From: a virus
Length of the DNA: 23,004 bases
Direction: 5' to 3' (one strand)
IMG/VR virus record: IMGVR_UViG_3300049893_001280
Coordinates: 1-23,004 of that record
The notes below the pieces were generated by a model. That model was not told the DNA's origin. It did not search any database and was given only the letters and a program-made list of their open reading frames with translations. The translations under genes were made by a program, and so were the position numbers. Positions 9,862-21,792 of this stretch are shown piece by piece. Within the stretch, counting starts at the first letter, position 1, and each line of letters begins with the position of its first letter.

Positions 9862-10227
9862 ATGGCTTTTGTAATCCCCGTGCAGATTGCCTACAATGGG
9901 CAAAAATACAAAGGCGTCATGGGGCCATTTGAGCATTCTGCTGAACGCGAGTTTTCACTCACCGTTAGCAAGCGGGCGATCATGGAATGTGGTGATAAAG
10001 AAAAGCTCCGTGAAGTGTCTTTAAATCTGCTGTCGGCCTGGTCATCCATGCAAACAGCATTCCAAAGCTTGATGCTAGAAAACATCAATCTTCGACAAGC
10101 TCTTGATACCCAGAATCAAGATTTAGAAGCAGCCGACAAGCTACTTAAGGAAGCGGCAGAAATGATCAATGAGCAGCAATGTGAGCTGCAATCAAAGCAA
10201 GCCAGGAAGAATCTTTGGCCATGGTAG
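9862..10227 (+). CDS. Small coiled-coil hypothetical protein
   Basis: This 121-aa protein begins MAFVIPVQIAYNGQKYKG, a beta-rich start, and continues as a long helix from about residue 50. Heptad-like spacing in NLRQALDTQNQDLEAADKLL suggests a coiled coil. GAGGAAAG lies about 11 bases before the ATG and supports the start. It is a lone rightward gene between two leftward units, and its last 62 bases overlap the 3' end of the nuclease gene on the other strand. The function is unknown. Confidence 0.65.
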   Translation: MAFVIPVQIAYNGQKYKGVMGPFEHSAEREFSLTVSKRAIMECGDKEKLREVSLNLLSAWSSMQTAFQSLMLENINLRQALDTQNQDLEAADKLLKEAAEMINEQQCELQSKQARKNLWPW

Positions 10228-10528
10228 ATGTAAGCAGGAAAATAGTCCAACCACTCGTATAAGCGAGGTTGTATTTCCTGCAATCTCTTTCATAGCCAGA
10301 TCCAGTTACATGCCGTCCACGCATGTAAACGCCGCCTTGTATCTCGATACCAGTTCTGGACAATGGATGAGCAAAATCTAAACGATACCTCCTAGAGCGT
10401 TTGTTTTTAGAGTGGCGCTCTTGATAATCAATTTCCCACTTTTCAATATCGCTAAATTCTCGTTCAAGAATTAACGATGGATAGTGAGCCTGCCAAAGTG
10501 ACAGGAACTGATCTTCAAGAGCGCTCAC
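10166..10528 (-). CDS. Small PD-(D/E)xK nuclease, DUF559/Vsr-like
   Basis: This 120-aa protein has RYRLDFAHPLSRTGIEIQGG, matching the D-X(10)-E-x-Q/K core of the PD-(D/E)xK fold with Asp51, Glu62 and Gln64. It is followed by a G-R-H segment, then YERDCRKYNLAYTSGW and IFLLT, as in short phage endonucleases related to DUF559 and Vsr. It probably cuts or nicks DNA during replication, recombination or repair. The start is GTG, 3 bp after the Dcd-like stop. The last 18 or so codons overlap a convergent gene. Confidence 0.75.
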   Translation of the reverse strand: MSALEDQFLSLWQAHYPSLILEREFSDIEKWEIDYQERHSKNKRSRRYRLDFAHPLSRTGIEIQGGVYMRGRHVTGSGYERDCRKYNLAYTSGWTIFLLTSTMAKDSSWLALIAAHIAAH

Positions 10529-10531
10529 TAA

Positions 10532-11146
10532 TCAAACGGCAGCTAGTTGTACGCTAGCGCTTTGATTTTGATACTTCCCATCGCCATAGGCTTTATCAAC
10601 TTTATCGTTGAGCCTAAGCAGCATCACTTGCACAATTCCTTCGTTTGCATAAATGCGAACTGGGAACGTACAGGGATTGACAATGCAGATGGTCAGATGA
10701 CCACACCAGCCAGGTTCGATTGGTGTGACGTTAATAATGGTACCTTGGCGGGCATAAGTCGATTTACCATCGCAAATGCCCATCACGTCTTCAGGCATTG
10801 AAATGCGTTCAAGACTAACGCCAAGACCGTAAGACAAAGCGGGAAGAACAAAGAAAGAACTTCCGTTCTCTTCTTTCAACACTGCTTTTGTCAAAACGGT
10901 TTCATCAAAAGCTTTTACATCAAGGATGTCTGCTTTTGAGCGAAGCACGATAGTGTTTGTCGCCCGAGTGTTATCGATGACGCGAAAGTCAATCGGAGAC
11001 AGTCGAAGGTCGTAGCCTGCATGAGACAAGCCAAATGACAGGGCTTTCGTTCCATTCTCTAGCTGCCGCTGCTTCTCTCCAACAAAGGGAAAGAAGATGT
11101 CGTTTTCAGCAAGAGCCTGAATCTCGCGATCAGTAAGCAAGGTCAT
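10532..11146 (-). CDS. dcd: dCTP deaminase-like protein, catalytic Glu replaced
   Basis: This 204-aa protein has the dCTP deaminase/dUTPase fold signature: LSHAGYDLRLSP, CDGKSTYARQG, IEPGWCGHLTI and YANEGIVQVML. In E. coli Dcd, Ser111, Arg115 and Glu138 form the active site. Here Ser129 and Arg133 match, but the position of Glu138 (seven residues after the PGW Trp) is Cys154. The protein may therefore be inactive, altered, or bind nucleotides without deaminating them. Normal Dcd makes dUTP from dCTP, feeding ThyX through dUMP. The start at 11146 is set by an ATGA overlap with the upstream gene; a longer frame to 11461 only crosses that gene. Confidence 0.85.
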   Translation of the reverse strand: MTLLTDREIQALAENDIFFPFVGEKQRQLENGTKALSFGLSHAGYDLRLSPIDFRVIDNTRATNTIVLRSKADILDVKAFDETVLTKAVLKEENGSSFFVLPALSYGLGVSLERISMPEDVMGICDGKSTYARQGTIINVTPIEPGWCGHLTICIVNPCTFPVRIYANEGIVQVMLLRLNDKVDKAYGDGKYQNQSASVQLAAV

Positions 11147-11346
11147 TTTGCTTTGAAGATACCTTGAAGGTAAACAAACAGAAAAGCCATGCCAGTGCCG
11201 AAGCGTGGATAGCTGAGATCTGGGAAGATGGGCTGAAGAGCCCACCATCCCAGGAACGAAAGGCCGTAAACACAAGTCATTTGAACCACTAGCGCTACAA
11301 AGTTGTAGAGCAGGGTGTCTTCTGAATTGGAATTCGGCGTGTTCAT
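11143..11346 (-). CDS. Small two-helix membrane protein
   Basis: This 67-aa protein has two hydrophobic segments, about residues 14-36 (YNFVALVVQMTCVYGLSFLG) and 48-63 (FGTGMAFLFVYLQGIF), joined by a short loop containing Pro and Asp. The C-terminus is basic (KAK). The stop and the next start overlap in ATGA, and the start lies 2 bases beyond the upstream stop (TGATAATG). An inner-membrane protein inside a replication operon is unusual; the role is unknown. Confidence 0.7.
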   Translation of the reverse strand: MNTPNSNSEDTLLYNFVALVVQMTCVYGLSFLGWWALQPIFPDLSYPRFGTGMAFLFVYLQGIFKAK

Positions 11347-11348
11347 TA

Positions 11349-11645
11349 TCAGAACAGATCCGATGAGGACGACTTAGGAGCAGAGGAACGAGAGCCTGAC
11401 TGACTGGAATTGTTGTTCCAGAGGGCCGAGAAGCCGCGAGGAGCGTCTTCATCACGATCACCCTTCAGGCGGGCATTGCCCTTGAACTGAGGGGCCTTCT
11501 CGTTAGACATATTCTCGTTCGGCCAGAGAGCAAACTCAAAGGTGTAATTACCTTGAGCGTTGGGACCGGCTTGCTTTGCCTTGTTAAGAACTTCAGGCGT
11601 CAGTTCGACAGTGCCAGAGTAAGAGGGAGGAGAAAAAGAGGGCAT
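11349..11645 (-). CDS. Probable single-strand DNA-binding-like protein
   Basis: This 98-aa protein starts at the ATG at 11645, chosen because GGAG lies 7 bases upstream; a TTG at 11657 would overlap that site. The middle (YTFEFALWPNENMSNEKAPQFKG followed by NARLKG) recalls small OB-fold proteins with a strand, an N-x-K-x-x-x-x-P-x-F/Y-x-G turn and a further strand. The tail is Ser/Asn/Gln-rich and ends SSSSDLF, similar in idea to the acidic-aromatic tip of SSB proteins. Its neighbours are an exonuclease and an annealing protein. The SSB role is an inference. Confidence 0.5.
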   Translation of the reverse strand: MPSFSPPSYSGTVELTPEVLNKAKQAGPNAQGNYTFEFALWPNENMSNEKAPQFKGNARLKGDRDEDAPRGFSALWNNNSSQSGSRSSAPKSSSSDLF

Positions 11646-14314: not shown

Positions 14315-14367
14315 TGTAGACACCAGCAAACCGTGCGCCATGATATGCCCTTGATTCCTTGCCACGG

Positions 14368-16335
14368 ATGGCGTTCTCGATCCTTGACTACTTAGACCAG
14401 CTTGAGACAAGCAATGAGCCAGGGAAATATCTCTGTCCTGCCTGCGGTGGTAACGACTTCTCGGTGAACAAGAAGACTGGAGCGTATAGCTGTTGGCACG
14501 ACCCGTCTCCAGAACACCGCGCTGAAATCAGGAATGTTCTCGCTCCTATGGTCCGATGGGAGAAGCCGGCCAGGTCTAGCGGCCACTACTGCTTTTCTTA
14601 TAAAAACCTTAAAGGTGAAGTAGTTGTTAAGGTTAATCGGGATGACGACAGCGGCGCCAAGAAGATATGGCAAGAGTTCCCGACCATCGACCACGACTCT
14701 CCTAGTCACAAAACTACATTACAAGAAGTTAAATCTGGAATTCTTCCTTACAAATACAAGGAGGCTATCGAGGAAAGCGAGCGCACTGGCTCTCCTATTT
14801 TCATTGTTGAAGGCGAGCTCACTTGCGAAATGGTTTGGTCAATTGGCCTGCCATGTGTAACTTTCCTTGGCGGCAGTAAACAATATCGAACAAATGGTGA
14901 TTACAGCAATCTTTTTAAAAGCAAGGAAATTGTTTTAGCTCCTGATCGCGACGAACAAGGCGTCGCCTTCATGAGAGAGATTGAAGCTGACAACCCTGGT
15001 GCTAAGTGGGTTTACGCGGATCCAAGCTCTTGGGAATGGCAGAATCTTCCTAGTGGCAATGGATATGACTTAGCGGACTATATCGAGGAAGGTGCAACAA
15101 AAGACGACATTCTTTCCTCCATTGTTTCTAAAGGCAAACATCAAGGACAAAACGGTAAGCCAACATACGAAGAAATTATTTCAACAATAGAAAACTATGT
15201 TGGCCTTTATGCTAATGATGCTCGCATTTCATACGAAAGTGCCAATTGGTTAGAGCAGCGTGGCGTCAAAATGAGCCAGCAAAATATTGATAAAATTATT
15301 GATGAAGCAAAGGCTCGCATATATGGCAAGGAAGAAATTGAGACCATCGATGCTCTTACAATTGCTAACGCTGATCAATGTAGAGAATGGCTGGTTGCTG
15401 GCATTCTTCCTCTTGGCAGTGTCATGCTCTTAGCCGCCTCTGGCGGCACTGGTAAAAGCACGATTGTCTATAACTGGGCTCTCAGGATTGCTCTTGGTCA
15501 ACGCTGGTCAAATCGTCGCTGCATGAAAGGCAAGAGCCTGATCATCCAAAGCGATGAACCATTAGTGGATACGAGCGAAAAACTGGGCGTCATCGGCTTC
15601 CATGATGCCGGCCTGGAGCCTGGCGAAATCGCTTTTTGGGAGAACTGGCGCTTTGGCCATATGCGTCAGCTTGAAGATTATGTGAGAAAGCATCGCCCTC
15701 TGTTCATTGCTATTGACTCTCTTACTGCTTGTTTGGCAGGCATGGATGTTGATTTGGTAAAGAGCAATGCTGGTGATGTCATCTATGGACTCAGGGATAT
15801 TGCTAATCAATATCGCTGCAGCATTGTCATCCTTCACCACCTCAATAAACAAGGTGGACTAAGGGACTCGACTAGCTTTGTTGATAACGTCAGCGAAGTG
15901 GTGAAGCTTACCAGGATGGAGAACAATCCAGACCCAAATGCTTTCACCTTGGAATGGATGAAAAGCCGTTCTGGCCTCACTGGTAAGCATGCTCTGTATC
16001 GTCAGTCTCTCACGTATGGCTGGCAATACGCTGGTCCGCTTGGTCACACTCTTGATGAACTCGACAGGGTTATTAATGCTGTTGATAGCCGCAAGAACCG
16101 CAGGCTTACAAAGCTTGACGTGAGCAACTATTGCCAGCATCTTGATGTCACATCAACTGGCCGTCTTCTGGAAGTGGCTAGGCGGCAAGGATTGATTACA
16201 AGCAGCTTTATTACTAGCGAAATCGGAGGCCGCACTCGGGTGTATCAATCATGGGACTATCAAGAACCAATGGTTGAACCGGATCCAATTGATCCTGTCA
16301 TTAGTGAATCCGATGAAGAAGAGGAGTATTTCTGA
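14368..16335 (+). CDS. Primase-helicase (zinc-Toprim plus RecA-like ATPase)
   Basis: This 655-aa protein combines three parts. Near residues 21-46 is a zinc-binding site (CPACGG, then SCWHD). A Toprim region follows, with FIVEGELTCEMVW and VLAPDRDEQG holding the acidic residues. From about residue 340 there is a RecA/RepA-like helicase: Walker A GGTGKST near residue 360, Walker B LFIAIDSL near 447, and ILHHLNK. It would prime and unwind DNA at the phage replication fork. The acidic C-terminus (SESDEEEEYF) could bind partners. The ATG at 14368 is preferred to the TTG at 14359. It overlaps the next gene by one base (TGATG). Confidence 0.9.
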   Translation: MAFSILDYLDQLETSNEPGKYLCPACGGNDFSVNKKTGAYSCWHDPSPEHRAEIRNVLAPMVRWEKPARSSGHYCFSYKNLKGEVVVKVNRDDDSGAKKIWQEFPTIDHDSPSHKTTLQEVKSGILPYKYKEAIEESERTGSPIFIVEGELTCEMVWSIGLPCVTFLGGSKQYRTNGDYSNLFKSKEIVLAPDRDEQGVAFMREIEADNPGAKWVYADPSSWEWQNLPSGNGYDLADYIEEGATKDDILSSIVSKGKHQGQNGKPTYEEIISTIENYVGLYANDARISYESANWLEQRGVKMSQQNIDKIIDEAKARIYGKEEIETIDALTIANADQCREWLVAGILPLGSVMLLAASGGTGKSTIVYNWALRIALGQRWSNRRCMKGKSLIIQSDEPLVDTSEKLGVIGFHDAGLEPGEIAFWENWRFGHMRQLEDYVRKHRPLFIAIDSLTACLAGMDVDLVKSNAGDVIYGLRDIANQYRCSIVILHHLNKQGGLRDSTSFVDNVSEVVKLTRMENNPDPNAFTLEWMKSRSGLTGKHALYRQSLTYGWQYAGPLGHTLDELDRVINAVDSRKNRRLTKLDVSNYCQHLDVTSTGRLLEVARRQGLITSSFITSEIGGRTRVYQSWDYQEPMVEPDPIDPVISESDEEEEYF

Positions 16336-16901: not shown

Positions 16902-17066
16902 ATGGCGAACATCTGGAAGAAGCGAGAGGAGGAGGAAGCTCGGAGGGCCCAGGAGGAGGCCAAGGCTGATGAACTGGCTGAGCTGATCCAGGAGGCTACG
17001 GAGACGCTTGAGGAGCCCTGGAGGCCCCAGGTGGCGCCTGAGGAGCCGCATTACGAATGGGACTGA
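16902..17066 (+). CDS. 54-aa highly charged helical protein
   Basis: This short frame starts MANIWKKREEEEARRAQEEA and ends EEPHYEWD. It is almost entirely charged, with a helical first 38 residues and a Pro/Glu-rich acidic tail. G+C and Glu codon use are above the flanking genes. It lies 24 bases after the nuclease stop and just before a strong terminator, so it is the last gene of this unit. The ribosome-binding site is weak. Function unknown; the helix could be a binding peptide. Confidence 0.5.
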   Translation: MANIWKKREEEEARRAQEEAKADELAELIQEATETLEEPWRPQVAPEEPHYEWD

Positions 17067-17071
17067 TAGAC

Positions 17072-17096
17072 GAGGGGCGATGCCCCTCTTTTTTTT
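17072..17096 (+). terminator. Strong rho-independent terminator
   Basis: A perfect 7-bp stem, GAGGGGC / GCCCCTC, with a 3-base loop is followed by eight T. It closes the primase-helicase unit 6 bases after the 54-aa gene. Anything downstream needs its own promoter or read-through. Confidence 0.9.
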
Positions 17097-17160
17097 AGGC
17101 CTCTATAAGACTCATTTGAGTGTGCCAATACTGAAAGCGTCACAGGATTGGTTGACACGC

Positions 17161-17310
17161 GATATATGCTGAGGCCAGGCGCAGCTACCGACCGGTATGC
17201 GACGCTAACCGGAGTCCGCTCCACAAGTTGCTCTTCGCAATAGTGGCTTGCATGGCTGTTGATCCTAGGTAACCTTCGCGAAGGGTCGCCCTAGCGACCC
17301 GTTCCTAGAC
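17161..17310 (+). ncRNA. Candidate structured RNA or leader
   Basis: No gene fits 17097-17333. The region can fold into several hairpins in a row: CCGGT/ACCGG (17192-17212); CCACAAGTTGC/GCAATAGTGG with a 5-base loop (17221-17246); the self-complementary CCTTCGCGAAGG (17273-17284); and GGGTCGC/GCGACCC with a 4-base loop (17283-17300). The last two are flanked by CTAGG...CCTAG (17265-17269, 17304-17308), which with AAC/GTT could form a closing stem. TTGACA at 17152-17157 has no good -10 box. Strand is assigned from the neighbouring genes. It could be a small RNA, a leader of the next gene, or a DNA site. Confidence 0.4.
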
Positions 17311-17333
17311 TACCTCTGATCAATATTTCTTCC

Positions 17334-17567
17334 ATGCCTAAACCTCCTGAAACTCCTGATCGGCTCCCTTCGCTGGAACACTCTGGAGTGACCATCGAAA
17401 TCTATAACCACCACGGTTATTTGATTCCTGATAAAGGAAACGCTCCTAAAAGCCGCATCCTTTACGCAGCTAGAGATGAAGCAGGAGAACGTCATTGGCG
17501 TGGAAGCCTAGAGGAGATTTGTCTCCTTATTGATCGGGGCTTCGCTGTTGCTCCAATCGCTTCCTAA
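17334..17567 (+). CDS. Small hypothetical protein
   Basis: This 77-aa protein starts MPKPPETPDRLPSLE, a Pro-rich head, followed by a beta-rich core (GVTIEIYNHHGYLIPDKG, then RILYAARDEAG) and a helix (SLEEICLLIDRGF). No membrane segment or known motif was found. It is the first gene after the structured block at 17161-17310, which may act as its leader. The function is unknown. Confidence 0.6.
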   Translation: MPKPPETPDRLPSLEHSGVTIEIYNHHGYLIPDKGNAPKSRILYAARDEAGERHWRGSLEEICLLIDRGFAVAPIAS

Positions 17568-17716: not shown

Positions 17717-17928
17717 CAGCTTCTCGCAAACTGAACAGCCCCTATCTAACTCAATCAGAATGGGATGAAATGCAAGTACTGAGGAAGGCAATTAGCTATT
17801 CCCCATCGACAGTATCTCCTATGCTGCAGGAAAGGTTTGCTGATCTTTTTGCGAGATCCCTTTTAGATAAAGAAAGTAACACTCCAGACCACTTTAATGC
17901 CACGCCCTTCTATCGAATTCCAGACTGA
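17713..17928 (+). CDS. Small hypothetical protein
   Basis: This 71-aa mainly helical protein contains LTQSEWDEMQVLRKAISYSP and ERFADLFARSLLDKE. It overlaps its upstream neighbour by 4 bases and the downstream HTH gene by 32 bases, so the three are probably co-translated. No family is recognised. Its position before a terminase-like HTH protein is noted, but no function can be given. Confidence 0.6.
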   Translation: MTASRKLNSPYLTQSEWDEMQVLRKAISYSPSTVSPMLQERFADLFARSLLDKESNTPDHFNATPFYRIPD

Positions 17929-18598
17929 CCAAGACGAACTGAACTTTGGGGTGAGAGTGCTTTTAGAAGCAGGCTTCACTCCAAAGCAGATTGATCGCAT
18001 TCGCAATGAAACTGGTGTTGGCCCAGGTAAGATTGCTTACGATAAAGAAACCTTAGGCCAGCGTCGATATATGGTAAGCGAGCTGTGCGCTGCACAGCTC
18101 AGTAACAGGCAAATTGCGAATGTCCTTAAACTATCAAAAGAAACAGTAAGTGCAGACAGGCAGTACAACCGCCAGCTTTATACAGAGGAAATCTTAAAAA
18201 GTGCCGATATTCATCGGGCTCGTCTTCTTAAGGAACAAATGGAGCTTAAGGAGATTGCCTTACAAAGTTTTGAACGCAGCAAAACAAAGAAAACCACAAC
18301 AATCTCAGATCAAGGCGGCGATGAAGGAGCGATTGTTAAAGTTGATGAAACTGCCGGCGATGCTTCTTTCTTGAACGTAGCCAAGAACTGTCTAGTGGAA
18401 CAAGCCAAGCTCCTGGGCTTGCATGAACTGAAGCGTGAAGAGAATCAGGACAAGTCCTACCGTCAATTCCTCACTGACCTCACTTCTACCATTGCGAAAG
18501 AGAAGGAAGTCGAGAAAAACATGATTGACCGTGGTGAAGCAATTCCTGTAGACTTTTTTGAAGAAGAACGGAAGATGCTTCCCATTTCGGAAGAATAG
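17897..18598 (+). CDS. HTH protein, possible terminase small subunit
   Basis: This 233-aa protein has a helix-turn-helix at about residues 66-92 (AQLSNRQIANVLKLSKETVSADR) after a helical N-terminal region. Later, GDASFLNVAKNCLVEQAKLLGL resembles a segment of phage small terminase subunits, where a G-D/x-P-x-F-L helix precedes C-x-x-x-x-K-L-L-G. A long Lys-rich middle may bind DNA. The family assignment rests on this pattern alone; a transcription regulator is the alternative. No large terminase gene is in the window to support it. Confidence 0.55.
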   Translation: MPRPSIEFQTDQDELNFGVRVLLEAGFTPKQIDRIRNETGVGPGKIAYDKETLGQRRYMVSELCAAQLSNRQIANVLKLSKETVSADRQYNRQLYTEEILKSADIHRARLLKEQMELKEIALQSFERSKTKKTTTISDQGGDEGAIVKVDETAGDASFLNVAKNCLVEQAKLLGLHELKREENQDKSYRQFLTDLTSTIAKEKEVEKNMIDRGEAIPVDFFEEERKMLPISEE

Positions 18599-20836: not shown

Positions 20837-21001
20837 TATATCAGGCTCCTTCGGGAGCCTTTTTGTTGTCCATTGACTGTCACCAGGGATGGGTTCCATT
20901 CCTGCTTCCCAGGTGTCATAGTCGTCATCGTTTCTTGGGTCAAGAATTTCTCCGTCTTTTAACCATCGAGCAAGTCGTTCTTTCTCAAACGCTGAAGCCA
21001 T
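20819..21001 (-). CDS. Small hypothetical protein, convergent
   Basis: This 60-aa protein begins MASAFEKERLARWLKDGEIL and is rich in Asp, Trp and Glu (DPRNDDDYDTWEAGMEP). AAGGA lies 6 bases before the ATG, a good ribosome-binding site. It is convergent with the rightward unit and its last codons run through the terminator hairpin at 20843-20864. No family is recognised. It is preferred over the competing plus-strand frame at 20833-21066. Confidence 0.6.
   Translation of the reverse strand: MASAFEKERLARWLKDGEILDPRNDDDYDTWEAGMEPIPGDSQWTTKRLPKEPDISRLLG
20843..20864 (+). terminator. Strong rho-independent terminator
   Basis: A 7-bp stem, AGGCTCC / GGAGCCT, with a TTCG tetraloop is followed by TTTT and G. 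It ends the rightward early-gene run directly after the 20609-20836 gene. Confidence 0.9.
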
Positions 21002-21723: not shown

Positions 21724-21763
21724 TGGCCTCTCGCGAGGCGCATGACTTCGGTTGACAGTACGG

Positions 21764-21792
21764 AGCCCTGGGGTGGTGCCTAGGGCTTTTTT
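21764..21792 (+). terminator. Probable terminator after the RlpA gene
   Basis: A 6-bp stem, AGCCCT / AGGGCT, with a 12-base GT-rich loop is followed by TTTTT. It lies about 40 bases past the RlpA-like gene. Confidence 0.7.

Follow-up and report, generated by a model that had tools for sequence, protein, structure and literature searches.

A probable structured leader at the head of a putative early operon in an S-CBS4-like cyanosiphovirus, with a recurrent hairpin element in related leaders

Background

What is the gene-free block found at positions 17097-17333 of a viral contig: a structured RNA or leader for the early genes, or a site of replication or packaging, as the original prediction had proposed from its apparent wealth of hairpins? 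The window (i.e., the whole stretch of DNA that was analysed) is a 23,004-base virus record, an IMG/VR contig, whose gene order is that of Synechococcus phage S-CBS4 when compared at the protein level (tail fibre, endolysin, thymidylate synthase, dCTP deaminase, Sak-like annealing protein and primase/helicase-like ATPase, followed by small genes and a lipoprotein), with 57% identity between the two ATPases. No DNA-level similarity of the window to phage records was found, its relatives being visible at the protein level only, and a search for tRNA and tmRNA genes in it returned none. This gene content makes an S-CBS4-like cyanosiphovirus, infecting cyanobacteria, the most likely source of the window. 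Note that we found little in the literature on early-gene control in cyanobacterial siphophages.

Results

Genomic setting of the block

On its left the block is bounded by the intrinsic terminator that ends a 54-aa ORF, and on its right by the opening gene of a rightward operon. The only close relative with the same flanks is contig IMGVR_UViG_3300034198_021207 (hereafter L002), and the following features frame the locus.

14359-16335: primase/helicase-like gene, near the gene-free block
16902-17066: 54-aa ORF, the gene preceding the block, ending in an intrinsic terminator
17072..17095, + strand: intrinsic terminator of the 54-aa ORF (GAGGGGCGATGCCCCTC followed by T8; 7-bp stem, 3-nt loop), kept in L002
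17122..17143, no strand: degenerate inverted repeat, candidate operator, lying just upstream of the promoter in relatives
17152..17170, + strand: predicted promoter (TTGACA at 17152-17157, -10-like TATGCT at 17165-17170), a weak sigma-70 match
17165..17185, + strand: 21-nt block TATGCTGAGGCCAGGCGCAGC, identical in L002, comprising the -10-like box and the leader start
17176..17333, + strand: predicted 5' UTR of the operon (~158 nt), from the promoter position and the ORF start
17334..17567, + strand: first operon gene, encoding a 77-aa protein, homologue of S-CBS4 gp084, of no known family
17897..18598, + strand: operon gene, homologue of S-CBS4 gp086, called 'RNase E' in PHROGs (PHROG 645) and RefSeq

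Both the strong terminator announced ahead of the block and the lack of a gene within it were confirmed: GAGGGGCGATGCCCCTC and its T8 tract occupy 17072-17095, and no convincing gene lies between this terminator and the ATG at 17334. In addition, the terminator scan listed no terminator-like site between 17096 and 17333. The putative promoter was not listed by a consensus sigma-70 scan and, since it matches this consensus poorly, its assignment relies on conservation with L002 and on its position; good consensus promoters are found in the corresponding stretch of four relatives (L023, L031, L009 and L043; e.g., TTGACA-17-TACCCT in L023 and TTGACC-17-TATAGT in L031). Upstream of the promoter, 18 of 71 leaders carry an inverted repeat GTGCCA-N9/10-TGGCAC, which is present in 3 of 71 control stretches. 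In the window, the repeat is imperfect (GTGCCA...CGTCAC) and falls below the scan threshold, the L002 copy reads GTGCCA...CGGCAC, and in L020 and L084 both arms are changed (GTGACA/TGTCAC). This repeat is likely an operator, perhaps bound by the helix-turn-helix protein of the same operon. Downstream of the 77-aa gene follow homologues of gp086 and others; for the 17897-18598 product, Pfam and NCBIfam give only a weak LuxR/GerE-type helix-turn-helix match (nearest name PedR), and a regulator is a possible reading of it. The 77-aa protein has a predicted beta4-alpha fold (pLDDT 88), for which a fold search returned no convincingly matching solved structure and no convincing neighbour of known function; PUR-repeat proteins recurred in this search with E-values above 1, too weak for use.

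Folding of the block

Folded as RNA, the whole block 17097-17333 reaches a z-score of -2.64 against dinucleotide shuffles (1 of 200 folding as well), and its reverse strand -1.97. This stability is unevenly distributed, as the features below indicate.

17178..17206, + strand: weak first hairpin of the leader (CGCA/UGCG, UACC/GGUA), folding no better than shuffles
17221..17246, + strand: second leader hairpin (CCAC/GTGG, GTTGC/GCAAT), 5-nt loop, no excess over shuffles
17257..17328, + strand: nested strong helix region (-30.2 kcal/mol, z -5.66, 0 of 200 shuffles as good), the sole part folding significantly
17273..17279, + strand: CCTTCGC motif, overrepresented in the leaders of relatives, where it mostly lies immediately 5' of the element's outer stem
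17283..17300, + strand: terminal hairpin GGGTCGC-CCTA-GCGACCC, perfect, with a CCUA loop

Positions 17097-17165 (z -0.16) and 17176-17260 (z -0.25) show no excess over shuffles, while 17190-17333 reaches z -3.80. Local pairing far above that of the neighbouring DNA had been claimed for the entire block; this is true for its last third only (z -5.66), and the proposed comparison with shuffled sequence likewise separates a last third that beats the shuffles from first two thirds that do not. When 381 windows of 120 nt were scanned, 17257-17376 ranked 7th relative to shuffles, so that six other windows of the contig fold at least as well, and those starting at 17077 and 17137 ranked 240th and 243rd. 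The best local fold of the contig relative to shuffles is found at 10417-10536 (z -6.09), where two ORFs on the minus strand (10166-10528 and 10532-11461) meet.

The individual hairpins described from the sequence do exist, with some corrections. The two perfect ones, CCTTCGCGAAGG at 17273-17284 and GGGTCGC-CCTA-GCGACCC at 17283-17300, overlap by 2 bases, and because 17283-17284 are common to both, they cannot both form fully. The hairpin of about ten pairs with a 5-base loop is present at 17221-17246, with 9 pairs. A CTAGG/CCTAG closing stem can be drawn as described (17265-17269/17304-17308), but the minimum-energy fold uses AGGUA/UACCU instead (17267-17271/17311-17315), enclosing the terminal hairpin inside UGUUGAUC/GAUCAAUA. 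The terminal hairpin was also considered as an intrinsic terminator or attenuator and rejected, as no U-tract follows it. Altogether, the block amounts to one strong and probably functional leader hairpin, the remainder being ordinary leader and promoter sequence.

The nearest relative

Pattern searches of viral contigs for the start block and for CTAGGTA-CCTAGACTA gave no match beyond L002. Its alignment with the window keeps the terminator, CTCATTTGA-TGTGCCAAT, TTGAC--GCGAT-TATGCTGAGGCCAGGCGCAGC and the two flanks of the final hairpin (CTAGGTAACCT and CCTAGACTA); CTAGG/CCTAG is kept as well, unlike the AGGUA/UACCU closing stem. L002 is without 13 and 41 nt of the middle (~54 nt), including about half of the first hairpin and all of the second, and the middle hairpins are thus dispensable. 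The terminal hairpin, GGGTCGC-CCTA-GCGACCC in the window, is GGCCGC-CCCAA-GCGGCC in L002, so that the stem changes from GGTCGC/GCGACC to GGCCGC/GCGGCC with one compensatory double change, U-A to C-G. Paired changes in relatives, as the original prediction required of a functional structure, are present, but much of the middle of the block is simply absent from L002, and since only this one close relative has the flanks, the direct paired-change evidence for the window hairpin amounts to one base pair.

A recurrent hairpin element in related leaders

A profile of the 77-aa protein searched against viral contigs gave 98 relatives, of which 80 were kept; together with earlier loci they provided 70 distinct leaders preceding this gene, some of them related to each other, which fall into three groups. 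A hairpin of at least 5 pairs with a CC(C)(A/U)A loop, a pattern framed after inspection of the leaders, occurs in 37 of the 70 (among them those of the window, S-CBS4 and L002), compared to 21 of 560 shuffles (3.8%) and 4 of 70 downstream stretches.

In group 2, the leaders carry one or two copies of an element of ~50 nt. Its outer stem encloses, in order, a strand resembling UACGAGCAG or UUCGCGAGG, the inner hairpin and a UUAUUCA-like strand. The inner hairpin has the CC(C)(A/U)A loop, and its stem often contains tandem G-A pairs (GCGAGCC-CCCA-GGCGAGC). Twenty of these elements were aligned by sequence only; with a 12-pair structure, 83.6% of cells are paired, compared to 77.6% in shuffles and 18-56% with slid partners. 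Both-sided changes were observed in 7 of the 12 pairs, where 2.6 were expected and none of 500 shuffles did as well, and the alignment thus points to clear covariation of the group 2 element. A covariance model found 37 elements (E ≤ 1.1e-5) from 60 sources, all on the coding strand upstream of the operon, with reverse-strand matches at noise level; these counts include the 20 elements that built the model, or close copies of them, and a few sources that are the same contig. Groups 1 and 3 display the same kind of loop (GCCGC-CCCAA-GCGGC and GCCC-CCAA-GGGC, the latter hairpin being present as two tandem copies in most of group 3), and consensus folding gives a conserved hairpin with almost invariant pairs and little or no covariation.

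The distance from the hairpin start to the start codon of the first gene varies from ~50 to 216 nt across relatives' leaders. In L059 and L061, two element copies precede an unrelated 230-aa gene that is now first in the operon. In L009 and L053, a second element copy begins ~10 nt behind a second promoter-like site, and that transcript would therefore carry the element too.

The CCTTCGC motif occurs in 22 of 28 group 2 leaders and 25 of 31 group 3 leaders, with ~5 expected in each. In both groups, CCUUCGC might pair with the inner strand as a speculative pseudoknot; the pairing looks good by eye, in a motif that varies very little. In the window, by comparison, CCUUCGC pairs with its immediate neighbour. 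Just before the element, the leaders of L009, L016, L053 and L006 carry a near-copy of codons ~5-18 of the downstream gene (71-95% over 20-41 nt), that of L009 reading as a 40-aa mini-ORF (MPFIENSDRLPSLERHRAGG...), and CCTTCGC may in part have arisen from partial copies of the gene like these. In the first gene of L023, L027 and L028 (e.g., L027 2907-2925), the SPQGE codons AGCCCCCAAGGCGAA resemble the leader hairpin GGAGCCCCCAAGGGCGGAAC and appear as weak matches to the leader model.

The expectation that the block would match no known family was borne out: Rfam 15 at the gathering threshold identified no family in the window or in 11 related loci, and a permissive search of the block and 8 related loci gave chance-level matches only.

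The window hairpin compared to the element

Searched over the whole window, the covariance model scores 10.2 bits (E 1.6), rank 6 among noise and not significant; restricted to the expected place, the window leader 17176-17333 alone, it gives E 0.011. The L002 leader gives E 0.14 for the hairpin only, the full form of the element not being found there, and a profile of the group 1 leaders, searched among 23 leaders, has the L002 hairpin as its best match (E 0.02). The loop and stem GGGTCGC-CCTA-GCGACCC follow the CC(C)(A/U)A pattern, and the CCTTCGC of groups 2 and 3 is present at 17273. These resemblances are suggestive, though short of conclusive, of a window hairpin that would be a divergent counterpart of the relatives' element. 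Compensatory stem changes are seen in group 2 as a set; between the window and L002, one pair is changed on both sides.

Discussion

Of the three options raised at the outset, a structured RNA or leader for the early genes is the best supported, as the block immediately precedes the first operon gene, its 21-nt start block is kept in L002, and relatives show recurring, covarying hairpins at the same place. We therefore regard it as reasonably probable that 17097-17333 is a control segment heading an early operon, with a cis-acting structured leader, in an S-CBS4-like cyanosiphovirus. The segment would comprise, in order, an inverted repeat of degenerate, operator-like sequence, a promoter, and a transcribed leader of ~158 nt with a strong nested hairpin (CCUA loop) towards its 3' end. 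This hairpin would be a divergent version of an element that relatives keep, once or twice, at the 5' end of this operon, and it would act in cis on the transcript regardless of distance. Such an action is likelier than the blocking of one ribosome site, because copy number and distance vary and a foreign gene can intervene; in addition, the conserved loop with stems free to change suggests loop recognition. RNA polymerase or a phage or host protein might bind the element and thereby render elongation processive, in the manner of put and nut RNAs; alternatively, the element might protect or process the 5' region of the mRNA. If the leader reading is right, antitermination or elongation control is our tentative first choice of mechanism, stability or processing is a possibility that we rate somewhat lower, translation or ligand control appears unlikely, and the lack of any function of its own is the least likely of the four. 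Antitermination of the put type and mRNA protection are, in our view, the two most likely readings.

In put-like antitermination, one specific form of the explanation that we favour, the leader hairpin would bind, while still nascent, to the RNA polymerase transcribing it, and the polymerase would then read through terminators in the operon without a phage protein; for put RNA, this read-through depends on the zinc-binding domain of the RNA polymerase beta' subunit. The position of the hairpin just downstream of the predicted promoter at the operon head, the one or two copies, the conserved loop with variable stems and the variable distance to the first gene are all consistent with this reading, and terminator-like sites do lie further down the operon (20843-20860 and 21762-21789). 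These sites are few, however (10 compared to an expected 5.5), and may be followed by promoters; moreover, HK022 has copies at both early operons, whereas the covariance model, which is not a put model, finds no second one in the window, itself perhaps only part of the genome. We thus consider put-like antitermination a possible but rather unlikely explanation. In its most specific form, S-CBS4-like cyanosiphoviruses would possess an undescribed leader-RNA family that renders the cyanobacterial RNA polymerase resistant to terminators across the early operon. Its members would occur once or twice per leader, share the CC(C)(A/U)A loop, frequently have tandem G-A pairs in their stems and sometimes form a possible pseudoknot with a preceding CCUUCGC, the window carrying a diverged, minimal version. 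This last proposal is speculative and we judge it improbable.

Next in plausibility, and also unlikely, is a 5' mRNA stabiliser or RNase processing site. Stems at the 5' terminus protect mRNA from RNase E, and the second copies of L009 and L053, within ~10 nt of a promoter-like site, would make their transcript start with a stem; in the window, however, the strong helix starts ~80 nt past the predicted transcription start and leaves the 5' end unsealed.

A more sceptical view is that the leader holds chance GC-rich palindromes with no function beyond spacing. Most of the block folding no better than shuffles, and six other windows of the contig folding at least as well, would fit such a view, but L002 keeps the flanks and the start block, and the relatives display recurrent loops and covariation, which makes it a distinctly unlikely account. 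Translational control of the first gene is more doubtful still: the helix 17257-17325 adjoins the ATG at 17334 and, ending 8 nt before it, could hinder ribosome entry, no Shine-Dalgarno sequence is visible ahead of this ATG, and the leader GCGAAGGG is complementary to CCCTTCGC in the first codons. The predicted fold nevertheless contains no pairing between the leader hairpin and these codons, and the hairpins of relatives start 50-216 nt ahead of the start codon or precede another gene.

A nut-type site, i.e., a boxA and a hairpin used by Nus factors, appears very unlikely. A boxA-like CGCTCTT(A)A is found on the 3' strand of the outer stem in 8 of 28 group 2 leaders (0.3 expected), but it coincides with a stem strand that other members replace with compensating changes, and no boxA is found in the window, in L002 or in group 1, the window lacking both the rrn/lambda type and the cyanobacterial ITS boxA. 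An equally remote DNA-level site, the replication origin or packaging site originally put forward, is not supported: although the primase/helicase-like gene (14359-16335) is nearby and cumulative GC skew peaks at ~17 kb of the window with no change of coding strand, there are no direct repeats (iterons) in 17060-17420 and no terminase among the surrounding genes tested or in S-CBS4 40000-69420, the S-CBS4 skew peak lies ~2 kb downstream of the matching place, and the element, which lies immediately upstream of the operon on its coding strand, changes in sequence with its pairing kept.

For the structured leader that we favour, the set of elements in relatives is more interesting than the window itself, given its clear covariation and lack of an Rfam match; the window is more modest, with one real hairpin in an operon leader and a block that is not hairpin-rich throughout.

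Comparison with known systems

With lambda and rrn nut-type sites, the element shares a leader hairpin of conserved loop and variable stem and, in some relatives, a boxA-like sequence, from which the window, L002 and group 1 differ in having no boxA. The candidate structured RNAs manA, wcaG and PhotoRC-II were found partly in cyanophages, manA lying in potential 5' UTRs, and the cyanophages with manA and wcaG are T4-like ones that carry them near metabolic genes (Weinberg et al. 2010, PMC2864571). The resemblance lies in being candidate structured RNAs, partly of cyanophages and, for manA, also in potential 5' UTRs; these are nevertheless Rfam families, none of which matches here, and the present element is found in siphophages beside genes of unknown function. 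The putL and putR sites of HK022 lie downstream of early promoters and consist of ~70 nt with two stem-loops (PMC9378689). The likeness is that of a structured cis hairpin element in the leader of a phage early operon, downstream of a promoter (here a predicted one), and it is drawn from position and description, across a different host phylum, rather than from a match in sequence or structure. Finally, the gp083-gp084 intergenic region of S-CBS4 has no DNA-level similarity to the window and its record carries no RNA-feature annotation, but it occupies the same place in a syntenic genome and contains a CCAA-loop hairpin. S-CBS4 is cultured and has the same layout, and this recurrent, covarying leader element absent from Rfam provides a concrete target for assays.
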